The position numbers and the translations under genes were made by a program. The notes under the pieces were generated by a model, which worked only from the letters and a program-made list of their open reading frames with translations, made no database searches and had not been told where the DNA came from. Shown here piece by piece: positions 14,287 to 53,506 of a stretch of DNA of 64,000 nucleotides. Source of the DNA: Halomarina rubra (lineage in GTDB: Archaea; Halobacteriota; Halobacteria; Halobacteriales; Haloarculaceae); contig NZ_JALXFV010000011.1 in NCBI RefSeq assembly GCF_023699475.1, positions 1 through 64,000 on the forward strand. The letters are read 5' to 3'. The stretch's first letter is position 1. The number at the start of each line of letters is the position of its first letter.

Positions 14287-15471
14287 CTAGTCGAACGCTT
14301 CGCGCAGTTCGGCCTCCGGTTCCCACTGGCCGTCGGCGGCCGTGAACTGGAGGGCGAGCGCGGCGTGGAGCAGCGACACCTGGGTGTCGAACAGCGCGTA
14401 GAACGGCTGGAGCGGCCCGAGCGCGTCGCGCGACCCGACGGCGACGAACCCCGCGAGCGCGAGCGGCAGTGCCGCCCCGGAGACGCCGAACGAGAGGAGC
14501 GCCCCGAGCGTGAGCGTCGCCAACCCGGCGGCGAGGAGCCACGGGCCGACGAGCATGAACAGCCAGTTGAACGGCAACACAGCACGGCCGTAGCGACCGT
14601 GACGACCGAGCGCGTCCACCTGGCGGGTCAGCAGGCGAATCAGCCCCATCGCACGGCGGTCTTTCTGGGTACGGCGCTGTCGGAACCCCGAGTGGGCGGC
14701 CTCGGAGTAGCGCACGTCGGGATCGAACACGACGCGGTGGCCGTTACGCCGGATGCGGAGGGCGAGTTCGGAGTCGTCGGCCAGCGAGTCGGCGTCGACG
14801 GGGACCACGAGTTCGCGGCGGAACGCCGAGAACGGCCCGTGGAAGATAAACGTCGAGTCGAGGTGTGACTCCAGCGTCTGGATGTGTGCCTGTATCCCGC
14901 GGTAGTCCGACTCGACCTCGCTGCCACCCAGTACCTCGGCGGTGCGGCCGGTGACCGCGCCGACGTCGGGGTCGGCGAAGTTCGCCATCGCCTCGCGAAG
15001 GGCGTCTGGAGCGACCTTCGAGTCGCAGTCGGTCTTGACGATGACGTCGTTGCTCGCGGCTGCGTACCCCTCGTTGAGCGCGATGGCGAGTCCCTGGCGG
15101 GACTCCTCGCGGATGACCCGAACGGTCGGGCCGTCGTCGTCGAAGTACGACTCGACGAGGTCGGGGGTGCGGTCGTCGCTCGCGTCGACGACGATCAGTT
15201 CAAGCTTCTCGGTTGGGTAGTCGAGCGCGGCGACGTCCGCCAGTTTCCGTTCGACGATACCCGCCTCGTTGTACGTCGGCAGGACGATACTGACCGTGGG
15301 CTCGTACGCCTCCTTCTCGATAGGCGACCCCCTGGGTCGGTGCCAGCCGTACAGCACGGCGAACAACAGGTACGGGACGGCGGCAGCGACGAGCAACGCG
15401 ACCCCGAGTTCAACGAACACGGGTCGACTCCTCCCCCATGCGTTCCATAGCGTACGTTCACGGGCCAACAC
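14287..15471 (-). CDS. Membrane-anchored family 2 glycosyltransferase
   Basis: GT2 enzyme of 394 aa. An N-terminal helix (about 20-42) precedes the GT-A domain: VSIVLPTYNE, VVDASDD, a DxD-like DCDS, and DDSELALRI. Two or three membrane helices follow (about 300-375), as in processive or lipid-linked-substrate GT2 proteins. The start is GTG. It is divergent from the GT4 gene at 15603; the 131-bp space between them carries a 16-nt motif also found upstream of padR. Probably adds or polymerises sugars of a surface glycan at the membrane; donor and acceptor unknown. Confidence 0.8.
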   Translation of the reverse strand: MLARERTLWNAWGRSRPVFVELGVALLVAAAVPYLLFAVLYGWHRPRGSPIEKEAYEPTVSIVLPTYNEAGIVERKLADVAALDYPTEKLELIVVDASDDRTPDLVESYFDDDGPTVRVIREESRQGLAIALNEGYAAASNDVIVKTDCDSKVAPDALREAMANFADPDVGAVTGRTAEVLGGSEVESDYRGIQAHIQTLESHLDSTFIFHGPFSAFRRELVVPVDADSLADDSELALRIRRNGHRVVFDPDVRYSEAAHSGFRQRRTQKDRRAMGLIRLLTRQVDALGRHGRYGRAVLPFNWLFMLVGPWLLAAGLATLTLGALLSFGVSGAALPLALAGFVAVGSRDALGPLQPFYALFDTQVSLLHAALALQFTAADGQWEPEAELREAFD

Positions 15472-15499
15472 CCTTGCTACAGACAGACTACTGGATTTG

Positions 15500-15515
15500 A
15501 AAATCGGTTATCCGA
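15500..15515. promoter_or_regulatory. Candidate PadR operator shared with the padR upstream region
   Basis: AAAATCGGTTATCCGA is identical to 52081-52096, just before the padR gene. The core ATCGG-TTAT-CCGA is an inverted repeat. It lies between the divergent genes 14287 (minus) and 15603 (plus), so it could control both. Operator function is inference. Confidence 0.45.
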
Positions 15516-15602
15516 GTCGTAAACAGTTACTACTCTGATGGGTGGAGCGGTAGCGACGCTATAGCAAACCCCGAACGAAACGTGGTTGACACGATAGCAG
15601 TC

Positions 15603-16889
15603 ATGCACGTCGGGATGGTACTCAGGGGGGCGTTCCCGCACGATATCCGCGTCGAGAAGGAAGCACGGTCGCTGGTCGCCGCGGGGTACGAGGTGTCGTT
15701 GCTCTGCCTCGCTCGGGAGGACGACGACGGCCGCGCGAGCGAGCCACAGCGCGAGCGAGTGGAGGGTATCTCCGTTCACCGCATCCCACGTCGGGAGCGC
15801 TACAACGGGCCGTATCGGACCGTCAAGACCGTCCGATTCCTGCTGACGCTGACGGACGTCATCTGGAAACAGGAGATCGACCGGTTCGTCCGCGAAACGG
15901 AGGTCGACGCGCTGCACGTCCACGATCTGCCGCTGGTCCGCACCGCCCAGTCGGTCGCCGACGCCCACGGCCTCTCGCTGGTCGCCGACCTCCACGAGAA
16001 CTACCCCGAGGCCGCCCGCCAGTGGCGCATGGGGATGGCCCGCCCGCGCCGGACGGTCCAGACCGTCTTCACGCCGTACCGGCGGCTCAGACGCCTCGAA
16101 CGCGACTGCGTCCGGCGGGCCGACCACGTGCTCGCGACGACGCCCGAGGGGCGTGTTCACTACGTCGAGGACTGCGGGGCCGACCCCGAGTCGGTGAGCG
16201 TCGTCTCGAACACAGTCGACCTCGACGCCTACGACACGTCGGCCGCCCCTGTCGAGGGCTACGACGGCGAGTTCGTCGTGAGCTACGTCGGCAGCTTCGG
16301 CCCACATCGTGGCCTGGAGTCGCTCATCGACGCGATGCCCGCGCTCGTCGAGCGGGTGCCGAACGCTCGCCTCCTGCTGGTCGGAGCGGCCGGCGAGGAC
16401 GCCTACGACGAGGCGCTCCGCGAGCGGGCGGCCGCGACCGGTGTCGCCGACCGCATCACGTTCACCGGCTGGGTCGACCTCGCCGACGTGCCCCGCTACG
16501 TTGCCGCCAGCAACGTCTGTGCGGTCCCTCACGCCCACAACCCCCACACCGCGACGACGGTGCCACACAAGCTGTTCCAGTACATGGCCTCGCGCAAACC
16601 TGTCCTCGTCAGCGACGTGCCCACGCTCGCACGCGTCGTCGAAGACGCGGACTGTGGTGTAGTCGTCCCCGCGGGTGATCACGACGCGGTCGCTGAGCGA
16701 TTGGCCGACCTTGCCTCGGACGACACCCGGCGCAGCCGTCTCGGCGAGAACGCGCGGGAAGCCGCCGAGAAGGCCTACAACTGGGAGCGTGAGGGCGACC
16801 GACTGGATGCCATCTATCGCCAACTCGACGAGCGCGATGGCGACACGGCGTCCGGACGCCCGGACCGTCGTCACTCGCTGTACGCCTAA
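15603..16889 (+). CDS. Family 4 glycosyltransferase
   Basis: GT-B enzyme of 428 aa from MHVGMVLRG; an in-frame GTG at 15582 is an alternative start. The N-terminal domain contains DIRVEKEARSLVAAGYEVS, typical of GT4 acceptor domains; the C-terminal domain has VSYVGSFGPHRGLESLI and the donor-binding VPHKLFQYMASRKPVLVS. The first Glu of the usual ExxxxxxxE pattern is Gln here. Predicted to transfer a sugar from a nucleotide donor during surface-glycan assembly. It converges with the GT2 gene at 16944. Confidence 0.82.
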   Translation: MHVGMVLRGAFPHDIRVEKEARSLVAAGYEVSLLCLAREDDDGRASEPQRERVEGISVHRIPRRERYNGPYRTVKTVRFLLTLTDVIWKQEIDRFVRETEVDALHVHDLPLVRTAQSVADAHGLSLVADLHENYPEAARQWRMGMARPRRTVQTVFTPYRRLRRLERDCVRRADHVLATTPEGRVHYVEDCGADPESVSVVSNTVDLDAYDTSAAPVEGYDGEFVVSYVGSFGPHRGLESLIDAMPALVERVPNARLLLVGAAGEDAYDEALRERAAATGVADRITFTGWVDLADVPRYVAASNVCAVPHAHNPHTATTVPHKLFQYMASRKPVLVSDVPTLARVVEDADCGVVVPAGDHDAVAERLADLASDDTRRSRLGENAREAAEKAYNWEREGDRLDAIYRQLDERDGDTASGRPDRRHSLYA

Positions 16890-37218: not shown

Positions 37219-37475
37219 GACACACCACGTTTCCGGTGAACACCGACAGAGCGTCCCCACCGAGACGGACGGTGAACCACCCCACCGACGAGGGAACACA
37301 CACCGGGTTTCCGGTGAAACGGCGGGACGTCTCGCTCCGGACTCGACGACGACCACGAGGGCGACACACCGGGTTTCCGGTGAAACCACCGCACGCCGTT
37401 CCAGTCGATGCACGGGAAACGGAGGTTCGAACGCGGGCCGTCGGCGAGACACACACACCACGTTTCCGGTGAAAC
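37219..37475 (+). repeat. Forward ORB group of the main-type origin (four boxes plus G-string)
   Basis: Boxes at 37219-37242, 37297-37320, 37363-37385 and 37453-37475, each CACACCRSGTTTCCGGTGAA. Spacings are 78, 66 and 90 bp. A fifth forward box is at 38042-38064. Confidence 0.85.
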
Positions 37476-38127
37476 GGCCTCCGAGCGGGGGTGGGGGGTG
37501 AGCGACGTCGGCCGTTCCGAACGCGAACGTGGGCGACGGCATCGAGCGCGAACGCCCACCCGCGACCGAACCGGAGTCGTCGAGACCAGCCATCGTCGGG
37601 AGCGAGAGACGCTGACGGCTGCGTCCGTCACGAGACGACAGAACGGACGGGTCGGAACGGAGCAGAACGGGGAGTCCTGCAGCAGTGCCGTGTCGTTCAG
37701 GGGAGGACTCATTCCCTCAACCGACTCAGTTCCACTTTCAGTTTCACTCTACCACTCACTTACAAGTACTCAACCAGCGAAAAGTCCATCAAGTCAGTTT
37801 TAGCCAAATAAGAGAACGGCAAGCGTCGTTCTCTCGATCGATCTCTTGCAAGTGAACTCGACCCGTCGGTCGAGAATCTAGTTTCCGGCGTTCCGACCGA
37901 CTGTCGTGGTGGTTGCGCTCTCGTCGTCGCGTCCCTCGTCGTCGTCGTCGACGGTGTACGGTCGACGGACGGTCGACTGAGCTTGTCTGGAGCCTCTCTC
38001 ACTCCTCACTCGGCAGGCGACGCCCCCGAGACGGGTTCGAGGGACACACCGCGTTTCCGGTGAATCGGTCCGCCCCGACAGCTACTACCCACCCTTCGCC
38101 TCCACCCACCCCCACCCTCGAAGGCGA

Positions 38128-38298
38128 TTTCACCGGAAACGTGGTGTGTGTGTGCGGTCTGTGGATTCTGTTGGAACAAAGTCAGAAGTTGTTCAATGTG
38201 GTGGTTTTCGACGGAGCAAAAGGACGAGTGATAGAATATCACTTTCACCAGCCTGTATGGGGAACAGTCAAGACGTTTCACCGGAAACGCGGTGTGTA
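38128..38298 (-). repeat. Reverse ORB pair next to orc1
   Basis: TTTCACCGGAAACGTGGTGT at 38128 and TTTCACCGGAAACGCGGTGT at 38277 flank a 125-bp AT-rich segment; the second ends 5 bp before the orc1 ATG, so initiator binding would also repress its own promoter. Confidence 0.82.
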
Positions 38299-38303
38299 CC
38301 CAG

Positions 38304-39500
38304 ATGTCCGACGCCGACGACCTGTTCATCCGGGAGGACCCGGTGTTCGTGAACAAGGAGCTCCTGGAGATCAACCACCTCCCCGACGAGGGCCGAATCG
38401 TCGGCCGGGACGCCGAGATCAGTCAGCTCGCCAACGCGGTCAACCCCGCCATCTTCGGGCAGAGCCCGAGCAACGTCCTCATCTACGGGAAGACGGGGAC
38501 GGGAAAGTCGCTGTGTGCGAAGTACGTCTCCGGACGGCTCATCGACACCGCCGAGGAGGAGGGCGTGACGACGGACTTCGCGTACGTCGACTGCGCCCAG
38601 GACTCGACGGAGACCCAGGCGGTCCAGACCATCGCGAGTTCGCTCAACGATCCCGAGCAGACGGGGGTGAACATCCCCGACAAGGGAATCGCGACGGCGA
38701 CGTACTACAAACGGCTGTGGACCATCCTCGACGAGTGTTACGACGTCGTGCTCGTCATCCTCGACGAGATCGACAAGCTCGACAGCGACGACATCCTGAT
38801 GCAGCTCTCGCGGGCGGGCGAGGCCGGCAAACTCACCGACTGCAAGATCGGCGTCATCGGCATCTCGAACAAGATCAAGTACAAAGACCGGATGGACGAG
38901 CGCGTCAAGTCGAGTCTCTGTGAACGCGAGTTCGTCTTCCCCCCCTACGACGCCGCCCAGTTGGGCGACATCATGCAGGCGCGTTCGGACGCGTTCCGCG
39001 AGGGTGTGCTCGACGACTCTGTCATCCCGCGCGCCGCCGCGCTCGCCGCCCGCGAACACGGGGACGCCCGGAAGGCCATCGACATCCTCCGGTACGCCGG
39101 CGAGATTGCCCAGTCGACCGGTGCGGAGGTCGTCCAGGAGGACTTCGTCGTCCAGGCTCGCCAGCGCGCCGAGACCGACCGCTTTCGCGAACTCATCCGC
39201 GGCTCGACGCCCCACGCGCGCTACGTGTTGCAGGCGTTGACGCTGCTGTCGCTCAACGAGGGCGACGACGAGGCGTTCCGGACGACGCGCATCTACGAGT
39301 TGTACGAGCAGGTGTGTCGCCAGGAGGGGTCGGAGTCGCTATCGCTCCGCCGGGTTCGAGACCTCCTCAAGGAACACGCCTTCCTCGACGTCATCGAACA
39401 GTCGCGCCACAGCGGCGGCTCCGCGGAGGGGAGCTACACCGAACACCGGCTGCTCGAGGACCCCGAGGTCGTCCAGAGCGTCCTGATGGACACCGAGTGA
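38304..39500 (+). CDS. orc1: Orc1/Cdc6 replication initiator of the main-type origin
   Basis: AAA+ initiator of 398 aa from MSDADDLFIREDPVFVN; a GTG 4 codons upstream lies in the ORB and is less likely. Walker A at 62-69 (GKTGTGKS), Walker B VLVILDEIDKL, sensor-like IGVIGISNKI, and a C-terminal winged helix (about 305-398). The EINHLPDEGRIVGRD N-terminal block is typical of the conserved haloarchaeal oriC1-linked Orc1. Binds the surrounding ORBs as ADP/ATP switch to load the replication machinery. Confidence 0.95.
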   Translation: MSDADDLFIREDPVFVNKELLEINHLPDEGRIVGRDAEISQLANAVNPAIFGQSPSNVLIYGKTGTGKSLCAKYVSGRLIDTAEEEGVTTDFAYVDCAQDSTETQAVQTIASSLNDPEQTGVNIPDKGIATATYYKRLWTILDECYDVVLVILDEIDKLDSDDILMQLSRAGEAGKLTDCKIGVIGISNKIKYKDRMDERVKSSLCEREFVFPPYDAAQLGDIMQARSDAFREGVLDDSVIPRAAALAAREHGDARKAIDILRYAGEIAQSTGAEVVQEDFVVQARQRAETDRFRELIRGSTPHARYVLQALTLLSLNEGDDEAFRTTRIYELYEQVCRQEGSESLSLRRVRDLLKEHAFLDVIEQSRHSGGSAEGSYTEHRLLEDPEVVQSVLMDTE

Positions 39501-39863
39501 ACCGAGGGCGACCCGTACGTCTCGAAAGTATGATTGTCACACACAGTTGACTTAACGGCGTATTTCACCGGAAACCCGGTGTGTCCGTCGTCCGGCCGTT
39601 CCCGGTGGCGTGGTCGAACCTCCCACCTCTCTCGCGCGCGCCCCAGTGCCACCGACACCTGTGTCGTCGGTTCGCTGTCGTCTGGCGAATGATTTAAGTG
39701 GTGACAGTCAAACGCCCAGAACGACGCGGTAGTGTCGCCCTCCGTACGGTCTCTGGGCGTGCCGACCAATCTGTCGGCGGGCACTGGTCAGACCTTACCA
39801 AACTGTTTTGGTTCCACCTTGAAGACCGCTGGCCGTCTCGGGAGATGTGAAGGTCACGAACTC
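39501..39863. other. Intergenic region with a downstream ORB
   Basis: No gene seen. A reverse ORB (TTTCACCGGAAACCCGGTGT, 39563) sits 62 bp after the orc1 stop, giving the origin an ORB on both sides of the initiator gene. A T/A-rich GATTTAAGT near 39690 may be a promoter for the next gene. Confidence 0.5.
39562..39584 (-). repeat. ORB downstream of the main-type orc1
   Basis: ATTTCACCGGAAACCCGGTG then TGT, same orientation as the two boxes upstream of orc1. Confidence 0.75.
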
Positions 39864-51275: not shown

Positions 51276-51824
51276 CTACTCCAGGTCCTCGAGTTCGAGC
51301 AGGTCGCGGCTCCCGTCCGAGCGCCGCGAGAGGAACTGTGCGCCGACGAGCGCGAGCAGGCCGACGGCGATGACGACGGCAGCGATGGCCGGCACGAGTA
51401 CGTTGGCCGCCACTGCGACGAGGAGGACGACGGCGACGGCGCTCAACCCGACGTAGTACCAGGTGAAGTCGCGGTGGTCGGACTCCTCGACGGGGAGATA
51501 GCGGACGATCTCCTCGGCTCGTTCGGTCAGCGTCACCGTGCCGTCGTCGCGGTCGTAGTCGGCGATGCCGAAGTCGTCGAGTTTCGGCAGGTGGGTCTGA
51601 TAGAGCGAGACGTACACCCGCCGCCGGGCGGTGTCGTCGAGGTCCTCGACTGGAATCTCGTTCTCCCACGCCGCGATCTGCCCGGCCAACTCGTCGATGG
51701 TCGCGGGCTCCCCGCGCGTGTAAAGGTAGTACAGGATGTATCGACGACGCGAGTTACTGAGGATGTTGAACGCGTCGTCGAGCGCCAGCTCCGTCTCCTC
51801 AGCCATCAGTGTCTCTCGTTGCAT
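51276..51824 (-). CDS. DUF7344 winged-helix protein with membrane helices
   Basis: Protein of 182 aa (or 176 from the ATG at 51806). DUF7344 domain: DAFNILSNSRRRYILYYLYT, RRRVYVSLYQTHLPKLDDFG, IADYDRDDGTV. Two helices follow (about 120-165), and a charged tail ends LLELEDLE. Paralog of the 39864 product. Candidate membrane-linked regulator of unknown target; it is oriented away from the PadR gene. Confidence 0.78.
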   Translation of the reverse strand: MQRETLMAEETELALDDAFNILSNSRRRYILYYLYTRGEPATIDELAGQIAAWENEIPVEDLDDTARRRVYVSLYQTHLPKLDDFGIADYDRDDGTVTLTERAEEIVRYLPVEESDHRDFTWYYVGLSAVAVVLLVAVAANVLVPAIAAVVIAVGLLALVGAQFLSRRSDGSRDLLELEDLE

Positions 51825-52080
51825 GTGGGTCCGTCGAGCCCCCCTCGTTCAGCTACGCTTACAGCACCGCCCCCATCGGTGGTGGGTGCCGATACCAACG
51901 TCAACATGGACTTTACTGGGTCACGTGCGCCCTTTGTTACGGACCAGCTATCGGGCTCTCGTAGGCTCACACATCGGTCTGCTAACCTCGTCCATCACGG
52001 TTAGCGAACGCCTCGCTCACGGTTGCGTCGGTGAAACAAACCGGGGGGTCAGGAAACTGACGATTTACTTGGTGACTAAC

Positions 52081-52096
52081 AAAATCGGTTATCCGA
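52081..52096. promoter_or_regulatory. Candidate PadR operator upstream of padR
   Basis: AAAATCGGTTATCCGA, followed by TATTTTAACATG, lies 14 bp before the padR ATG. The core forms ATCGG-TTAT-CCGAT. An identical 16-mer is in the divergent GT promoter at 15500. Autoregulation by PadR would fit, but it is unproven. Confidence 0.45.
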
Positions 52097-52110
52097 TATT
52101 TTAACATGTC

Positions 52111-52395
52111 ATGCAGATATTCGACCTGACCGGGTTCCAGCGTGACCTCCTGTACGTCATCGCTGGGTTGGACCAAGCGTCCGGCCAGTCAGTGAAGGAG
52201 GAGCTCGAAGCGCACACCGGCCGCGAGATAACTCACGGACGACTCTACCCCAATCTCGACGTTCTCGTCAACCGTGAACTCGTCGAGAAGGGCCAGATCG
52301 ACCGCCGGACGAACTACTACGCGGTCTCCGATTCGGGCATGGAGGCGCTTCGAAGCCGTCGCGACTGGGAAGAGCAGTACCTCTCTTTCGACTGA
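52111..52395 (+). CDS. PadR-family transcriptional regulator
   Basis: Winged-helix regulator of 94 aa: FQRDLLYVIAGLDQASGQSV, a wing with GRLYPNLDVLVNRELVEKGQ and a YYAVSDSGMEAL tail, the standard PadR pattern. It starts a second polysaccharide cluster (DUF1616, GT2, GT-C-like, beta-helix, nucleotide-sugar dehydrogenase) and is likely its regulator. Confidence 0.88.
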   Translation: MQIFDLTGFQRDLLYVIAGLDQASGQSVKEELEAHTGREITHGRLYPNLDVLVNRELVEKGQIDRRTNYYAVSDSGMEALRSRRDWEEQYLSFD

Positions 52396-52495
52396 GCCGC
52401 GGCGATAGCATCAGTATAACAATGCGCCGCAGTCGCCTCCGGACTCGTAGTAGCATGTCGTACGGTCCCTCGATTCGAACCGGGAGGTGTGTTTC

Positions 52496-53506
52496 GTGAG
52501 TGCTCGACGCTCCGGAGCGTCGGCCATCCCGTTCGACCTCATCGTCGTCCTGTTGTATCTCGGCCTGGTCAACTGGCTACTGGCCTCGAACGCACTGGGT
52601 GCGCCCGGCAACACGCTCCGCATCGTCCTGACGCTGCCGTTGGTCGTGTTCGTCCCGGGGTACGCGCTGGCGGCCGCGGCGTTCCCGCGTGCCCCCTCCG
52701 GCGAGCGCCGTGGGTCACTGCTCGACCGGGTGCGAGAGCGCCCGTCGGGCATCGACACCACCGAGCGCCTCGCGCTCGGGTTGGGGCTCTCGCTGACGCT
52801 GCTCCCCATCGTGGGCGTGCTCGTCGCGTTCCAGCCCGGACCGATGACGGCCGAGCCGGCGGTCGTCGCGCTCTCGGGGGTCGCCGCGCTGTTCACCGTC
52901 GTCGCGGCCATCCGCCGCTGGCGGCTCTCGGCTCAGGAGCGCTACGGCCTCCCGCTCGGGTACTGGAACGCCGTCACCGGCCGCTCGACCGAGGGGTCAC
53001 GCACGGACGTGCTCCTCTCGGTGGGTCTCGGCGTCTCGGTCGTCCTCGCGCTCCTCGCGGGGGGGTTCGCGATCACCTCGCCGCAGGATGCCCAGCGCTA
53101 CACGACGTTCAGCGTCGGCCACCTCGACGAGACGGGCAACTACGTCTTCGGCTCGGGCGGCGAGTTGAGCGAACCCATCGAGCGCGGCAGCGCCGTCGAG
53201 TCGGCGTTCTACGTCCAGAACAACGAACAGCAGACCGTCGAGTACACCGTCGTCATCCAGGTGCAGAAAGTCGACGACGAGGGCAACGTCGTCCAGACGA
53301 GCGGGGTCACCCGCTATCGCCAGACGCTCGAACCGGGCGAGGAGTGGATCAACCCCCACCGCACCACCATCAGCTACGAGGGTGAGAACGTCCGACTCGC
53401 CTACCTGCTCTACAAGGGTCCCATCACCGGGTCCGTGAGCATGGACACCGCCGACGACACCGGGTTCCACGCGCTCGACGTCGGCACCGAGGACGAGGAC
53501 GGCTGA
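52496..53506 (+). CDS. DUF1616 domain membrane protein
   Basis: Protein of about 336 aa; the GTG at 52496 has a GGGAGGTG Shine-Dalgarno-like sequence 7 bp upstream and is preferred over the GTG at 52487. DUF1616 pattern: PFDLIVVLLYLGLVNWLL, several N-terminal helices (to about 200), then an extracytoplasmic beta domain (VEYTVVIQVQKVDDEGNVVQ, GEEWINPHRTTI). It is typical of archaeal surface-polysaccharide clusters; function undetermined. Confidence 0.82.
   Translation: MSARRSGASAIPFDLIVVLLYLGLVNWLLASNALGAPGNTLRIVLTLPLVVFVPGYALAAAAFPRAPSGERRGSLLDRVRERPSGIDTTERLALGLGLSLTLLPIVGVLVAFQPGPMTAEPAVVALSGVAALFTVVAAIRRWRLSAQERYGLPLGYWNAVTGRSTEGSRTDVLLSVGLGVSVVLALLAGGFAITSPQDAQRYTTFSVGHLDETGNYVFGSGGELSEPIERGSAVESAFYVQNNEQQTVEYTVVIQVQKVDDEGNVVQTSGVTRYRQTLEPGEEWINPHRTTISYEGENVRLAYLLYKGPITGSVSMDTADDTGFHALDVGTEDEDG

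Follow-up and report, generated by a model that had tools for sequence, protein, structure and literature searches.

On balance, sequence comparison suggests that the 16-mer preceding padR probably belongs to a conserved module of operator and promoter that serves a PadR/RosR-like regulator encoded on a plasmid, and that one species carries a second copy of its own. In the window (the whole stretch of DNA analysed, bases 1–64000 of the 114,659-bp contig C3), AAAATCGGTTATCCGA is present exactly at 52081–52096 and at 15500–15515, both times on the plus strand and in intergenic DNA, as originally predicted; a search allowing up to three mismatches also recovered the reverse complement of the padR copy, because the site is a dyad. 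Since padR starts at 52111, the copy at 52081–52096 belongs to padR, from whose ATG it is separated by 14 nt, and the copy at 15500–15515 lies in the 182-bp gap between two divergent glycosyltransferase genes. The original prediction had named both settings, but its title and order of coordinates suggest the opposite assignment. Together with base 52097, the padR copy contains a perfect dyad, ATCGG-TTAT-CCGAT (52084–52097), whereas base 15516 is a G, so that the outermost pair of the predicted dyad is broken at the glycosyltransferase copy. A search of the species' own genome (4,068,489 bases, 16 contigs) gave no further place within two mismatches of the 16-mer, with 0 matches for the reversed-pattern control, while the 13-mer ATCGGTTATCCGA, with at most two mismatches, was found at 46 places (2 exact, 1 with one mismatch and 43 with two) versus 12 in the control.

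The gene set common to the seven replicons that carry padR (orc1, glmS, nucleotide-sugar dehydrogenase, glycosyltransferase, DUF7344 and DUF1616 genes) and the glycan genes annotated in related records (aglF and several glycosyltransferases) identify a plasmid of the genus that carries a glycan locus, and the window is located on such a plasmid, of the orc1/parA kind, from the haloarchaeal genus Halomarina. Matches within the genus include the plasmids of Halomarina BCD28, BND7 and PSR21 (94,505, 95,860 and 130,600 bp, respectively) and a contig of H. oriensis (84,824 bp), and orc1 is 90–97% identical in the replicons other than the window's own. Around orc1 (38292–39500), the region 37298–39590 contains several direct and inverted TTTCCGGTGAAA repeats; every one of the seven replicons has four to nine of them, for the most part close to orc1, and this region looks like the plasmid replication origin. 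In one 99,196-base contig (G006:C6), padR is present twice (L032 and L039), 90,532 bases apart, and the first 40 bases of the contig recur 90,532 bases further on; the doubled padR probably reflects the overlapping ends of a circular plasmid.

The padR gene (52111–52395, plus strand) encodes a 94-amino-acid winged-helix regulator of the PadR family (PF03551, 41.8 bits versus a cutoff of 27), whose nearest solved homologue by sequence is hsRosR (6qfd, E 2.8e-21, residues 4–87). Relatives of this PadR type are present in 278 plasmid records. As to the C-terminal dimerisation helix of PadR proteins, an AlphaFold model built from 17 sequences placed a helix at residues 74–90, with a mean pLDDT (56.2) and pTM (0.48) too low for use. 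The other six PadR orthologues are 87–98% identical to that of the window; among ten plasmid proteins compared, PadR and Orc1 (90–97%) were the steadiest, and the DUF1616 protein encoded downstream of padR on all seven replicons (52487–53506, plus strand, PF07760) was 43–67% identical.

The 16-mer site is retained in all seven genus genomes that have a padR orthologue, at a fixed distance to the ATG and with diverging flanks; an eighth genus genome (73% complete) has neither a close padR orthologue (best 69%) nor the site. In the alignment of the seven upstream regions, 21 of the 24 columns of the block [GA]ACTAACAAAATC[GC][GA]TTATCCGAT are invariant, compared with 74 of 332 (22%) over the whole intergenic alignment and 4 of 13 in the spacer up to the ATG, and none of 20000 column shuffles reached the conservation of the block. 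The dyad is perfect in four of the seven orthologues and has one left-arm mismatch in the remaining three, so its symmetry is not strictly kept. Its terminal T, which the glycosyltransferase copy lacks, is invariant across all padR copies, and the outer invariant bases of the padR sites read ATC-N8-GAT. When 80 PadR-like loci were compared (the best 80 of 590 confirmed in haloarchaea), the exact dyad was observed at one, the H. oriensis orthologue, and one other locus had it within three mismatches; PadR paralogues with a nearly identical recognition helix have no ATCGG dyad. The padR copy is very likely a protein-binding site.

The first bases of the 16-mer overlap a TAACAA element (52077–52082, plus strand, 34 nt from the ATG), and the ATCGG dyad follows directly 3′ of it; a second TAACAA, conserved in the intergenic alignment, points toward the DUF7344 gene (51934–51939, minus strand). 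TAACAA occurs 126 times on the seven replicons. In 28 of these cases an ATG that opens a frame of 80 codons lies 30–40 nt downstream; in 25 the distance is 31–34 nt, and eight of the 25 are padR itself, the doubled copy at the G006 contig ends included. The related TARCAA is present no more than 90 nt upstream in 73 of the 80 PadR-like loci (best 80 of 590). This frequency and the 31–34 nt spacing to the ATG fit a core element, in the BRE/TATA position, of leaderless or nearly leaderless mRNAs, which is how we interpret TAACAA; in Haloferax volcanii, 72% of protein-coding transcripts are leaderless (PMC4983044). TAACAA-type elements also precede glycan genes, about 31–34 nt before the ATG, and they differ from the usual haloarchaeal TATA motif, quoted as TTWT (PMC4983044); perhaps they mark promoters of a separate class, served by a particular TBP/TFB. 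We rejected TAACAA itself as the PadR operator in our main reading because the element also precedes other kinds of genes at similar distance, although a contact between PadR and TAACAA is still conceivable.

The position of the dyad directly after the TAACAA core element is consistent with a PadR/RosR-like protein that represses its own gene: a PadR dimer on the dyad would occupy the DNA immediately downstream of TBP/TFB and obstruct the polymerase, resulting in negative autoregulation. We consider PadR a likely binder of the padR-copy dyad. The original prediction, that PadR binds the dyad and regulates its own gene, agrees with the operator-like conservation of the padR copy, with its link to one padR orthologue only and with the precedent of RosR of Halobacterium salinarum, listed as a repressor of its own gene, VNG0258H (PMC4287449); PadR as the binder and the repressive sign are the parts of it that we infer.

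The second copy is flanked by a family-2 glycosyltransferase gene (14287–15420, minus strand, PF00535), for which gene calling and orthologue starts favour the GTG at 15418–15420 over a start at 15471, and by a divergent family-1/4 glycosyltransferase gene (15603–16889, plus strand, PF00534). Each gene has a TAGCAA element: that of the minus-strand gene (15474–15479) is 20 nt from the 16-mer and conserved in G006, and that of the plus-strand gene (15562–15567) is 46 nt from it, conserved in G006 and varied in G004. The 16-mer is therefore located upstream of both core promoters and over neither, and would not act there as the padR copy does. The divergent pair is also present in G006, G004 and G003 (family-2 protein 74–88% and family-1/4 protein 67–79% identical), whose gaps retain both TAGCAA elements in G006, part of them in G004 and hardly any in G003. 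The 16-mer was found in none of these three orthologous gaps, where the best matches had 5, 6 and 4 mismatches of 13, similar to shuffles. Four genus genomes do not have the glycosyltransferase pair, and three of them (G001, G002 and G005) retain padR and its site. Among the genus genomes compared, the second copy is seen in this species only.

How far chance accounts for the second copy depends on how the question is framed. By itself, an exact 16-mer repeat is unremarkable in the window, which contains 59 exact repeats of at least 16 nt (34 direct and 25 inverted); the pair described here has the lowest G+C content of them (0.38). With the padR operator as a given query, Markov models of order 0–4 trained on the 114,659-bp contig predict 2.4e-6 to 3.9e-6 exact second copies per 64 kb and 1.5e-4 to 2.5e-4 per genome. 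When any 16-mer common to two short intergenic gaps is counted (28 gaps, 5,966 bp), at least one was obtained in 2% of 1000 simulations (mean 0.02), the one observed being this pair. In all DNA left uncalled by a crude gene caller (22,166 bp), eight shared pairs were observed versus a simulated mean of 0.24, the other seven being located in other regions. The pair was picked by eye, yet its padR copy is conserved on independent evidence, and the true chance therefore lies between about 3e-6 per window (operator as given query) and about 0.02 (all comparable intergenic repeats). Duplication or transposition was rejected as the origin of the second copy, as the identity does not extend past the 16 nt on either side and no larger copied segment was seen.

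The reading that takes the padR copy for a genuine operator and the glycosyltransferase copy for a functionless coincidence comes close to an even chance without reaching it. The absence of the copy from all three orthologous gaps, the abundance of exact repeats in the window, the short-gap simulations and the missing final dyad base speak for it. Against it stand the low number of second copies expected from the padR operator (about 3e-6 for a window and 2e-4 for a genome) and the copy itself, which lies in a promoter gap, outside coding DNA, and is, apart from the padR site, unmatched elsewhere in the genome at up to two mismatches. That the glycosyltransferase copy is functional has, from the same sequence data, a similar probability, slightly under one half.

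For RosR, position relative to Tfb correlates with the sign of regulation, upstream sites activating and downstream sites repressing (PMC4287449). Carried over from RosR, this rule would predict self-repression at padR and, should PadR bind the second copy upstream of both core promoters, activation at the glycosyltransferase pair, the likeliest target being the minus-strand gene, whose core element is 20 nt away. A more specific and rather doubtful proposal is that the PadR/RosR-like protein recently recruited the divergent glycosyltransferase promoter in one species through a new exact operator copy, with opposite signs by position. If true, PadR and its two sites would form a minimal circuit tying surface-glycan make-up to the plasmid.

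Since padR and its promoter always travel together, the dyad could be bound by another factor, such as the protein of the DUF7344 gene next door. The gene of this protein (51276–51824, minus strand, PF24035) is divergent from padR and adjoins it on all seven replicons, and the same padR promoter has a second conserved dyad upstream of its core promoter, GTCAG-N4-CTGAC (52048–52061, plus strand). Its inner part, TCAG-N4-CTGA, is present in six of the seven orthologues at a constant 22 nt upstream of the ATCGG dyad, has at most one further match per replicon, and could be where PadR binds instead. Such an arrangement would also agree with the lack of the ATCGG dyad at PadR paralogues. However, the overlap of the ATCGG dyad with the padR core promoter is the classic place for autorepression, and the PadR relative RosR autoregulates, so we regard binding by another regulator as unlikely.

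The original proposal, in which a single PadR coordinates two glycan clusters, is quite improbable if read as a conserved regulon. Two exact intergenic copies and glycosyltransferases in both neighbourhoods are in its favour, but the second site is conserved in none of the three orthologous glycosyltransferase gaps, most relatives have no second site, and three genus genomes keep padR and its operator without the glycosyltransferase pair. Searches beyond the species were made with a 17-mer at up to two mismatches in 146 family genomes and gave 42 places versus 4 in the reversed-pattern control, which is imperfect for G+C-rich coding DNA; 10 places were in the genus and 32 outside. Loci were inspected for 30 of the 42: all seven in the genus are beside PadR, and none of the 23 inspected among the 32 outside has a PadR-like ORF beside the match, six of these 23 falling in one same conserved CDS. 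Further genus sites within two mismatches were limited to G005:C2:257073 and G006:C6:65595, each in a single genome. These two and a weak site at 92721 of the G005 plasmid, 20 bp beyond a stop codon, were rejected as regulon members, as they are not repeated in other genomes; no glycosyltransferase is among the seven annotated features listed for the region of G005:C2:257073. IMG/VR viral contigs contain 13 exact 16-mers, a count that may be of the order expected by chance in a collection of that size. A regulon joining the two glycan clusters exceeds the evidence, although shared control is possible; the data point instead to an autoregulatory operator that is conserved, plus one additional copy specific to this species, and disfavour an ancestral two-cluster regulon. 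Still less probable is that the conserved block is a core promoter alone with an accidental dyad, which would agree with the frequency of TARCAA upstream of PadR-like genes and with the presence of such elements before other genes at similar distance, but not with a conservation that runs past the core element to CCGAT, or with an exact dyad restricted to the orthologue among the 80 loci (best 80 of 590).

As operators of small archaeal regulators go, the padR site appears ordinary but well supported. To our knowledge, few archaeal regulators have a defined operator, and no paper on this site was among those listed by literature searches. The padR site offers a 14-bp dyad that seven species have kept at one and the same place in a short core promoter, together with a natural species-specific second copy. 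It could be used to test whether regulation changes sign with position relative to the basal factors, as has been proposed for RosR, and whether the gain of a single operator can rewire haloarchaeal glycan genes.

Bacterial PadR/LmrR operators have the form ATGT-N8-ACAT. Like the Halomarina site, they are short inverted repeats at the regulator's own promoter, with the same spacing as ATC-N8-GAT, but their arm sequence is different and Halomarina has the archaeal basal machinery. CsmR of H. volcanii recognizes a semi-palindrome by the TATA box, TATCA-N4-TGATA, with the same 5 + N4 + 5 architecture as ATCGG-N4-CCGAT; it differs in sequence and in its 65 associated genes, and the main text of its description does not contain the term 'PadR' (PMC13286277). 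The closest comparison is with RosR (VNG0258H; hsRosR structures 6qfd, 6qua and 6ez1), which, like the Halomarina PadR, is a PadR winged-helix protein with the motif HGRLYPNLD; RosR binds palindromes (PMC4287449), as would the Halomarina PadR. Its consensus, TCGnCGACGAGnTCGnCGAC, is unlike the Halomarina site, the two having only TCG...CGA in common when compared by eye (PMC4287449), and for this reason we did not classify the Halomarina PadR as RosR. RosR is moreover an oxidative-stress regulator with about 100 or more targets, while the Halomarina site has two copies.
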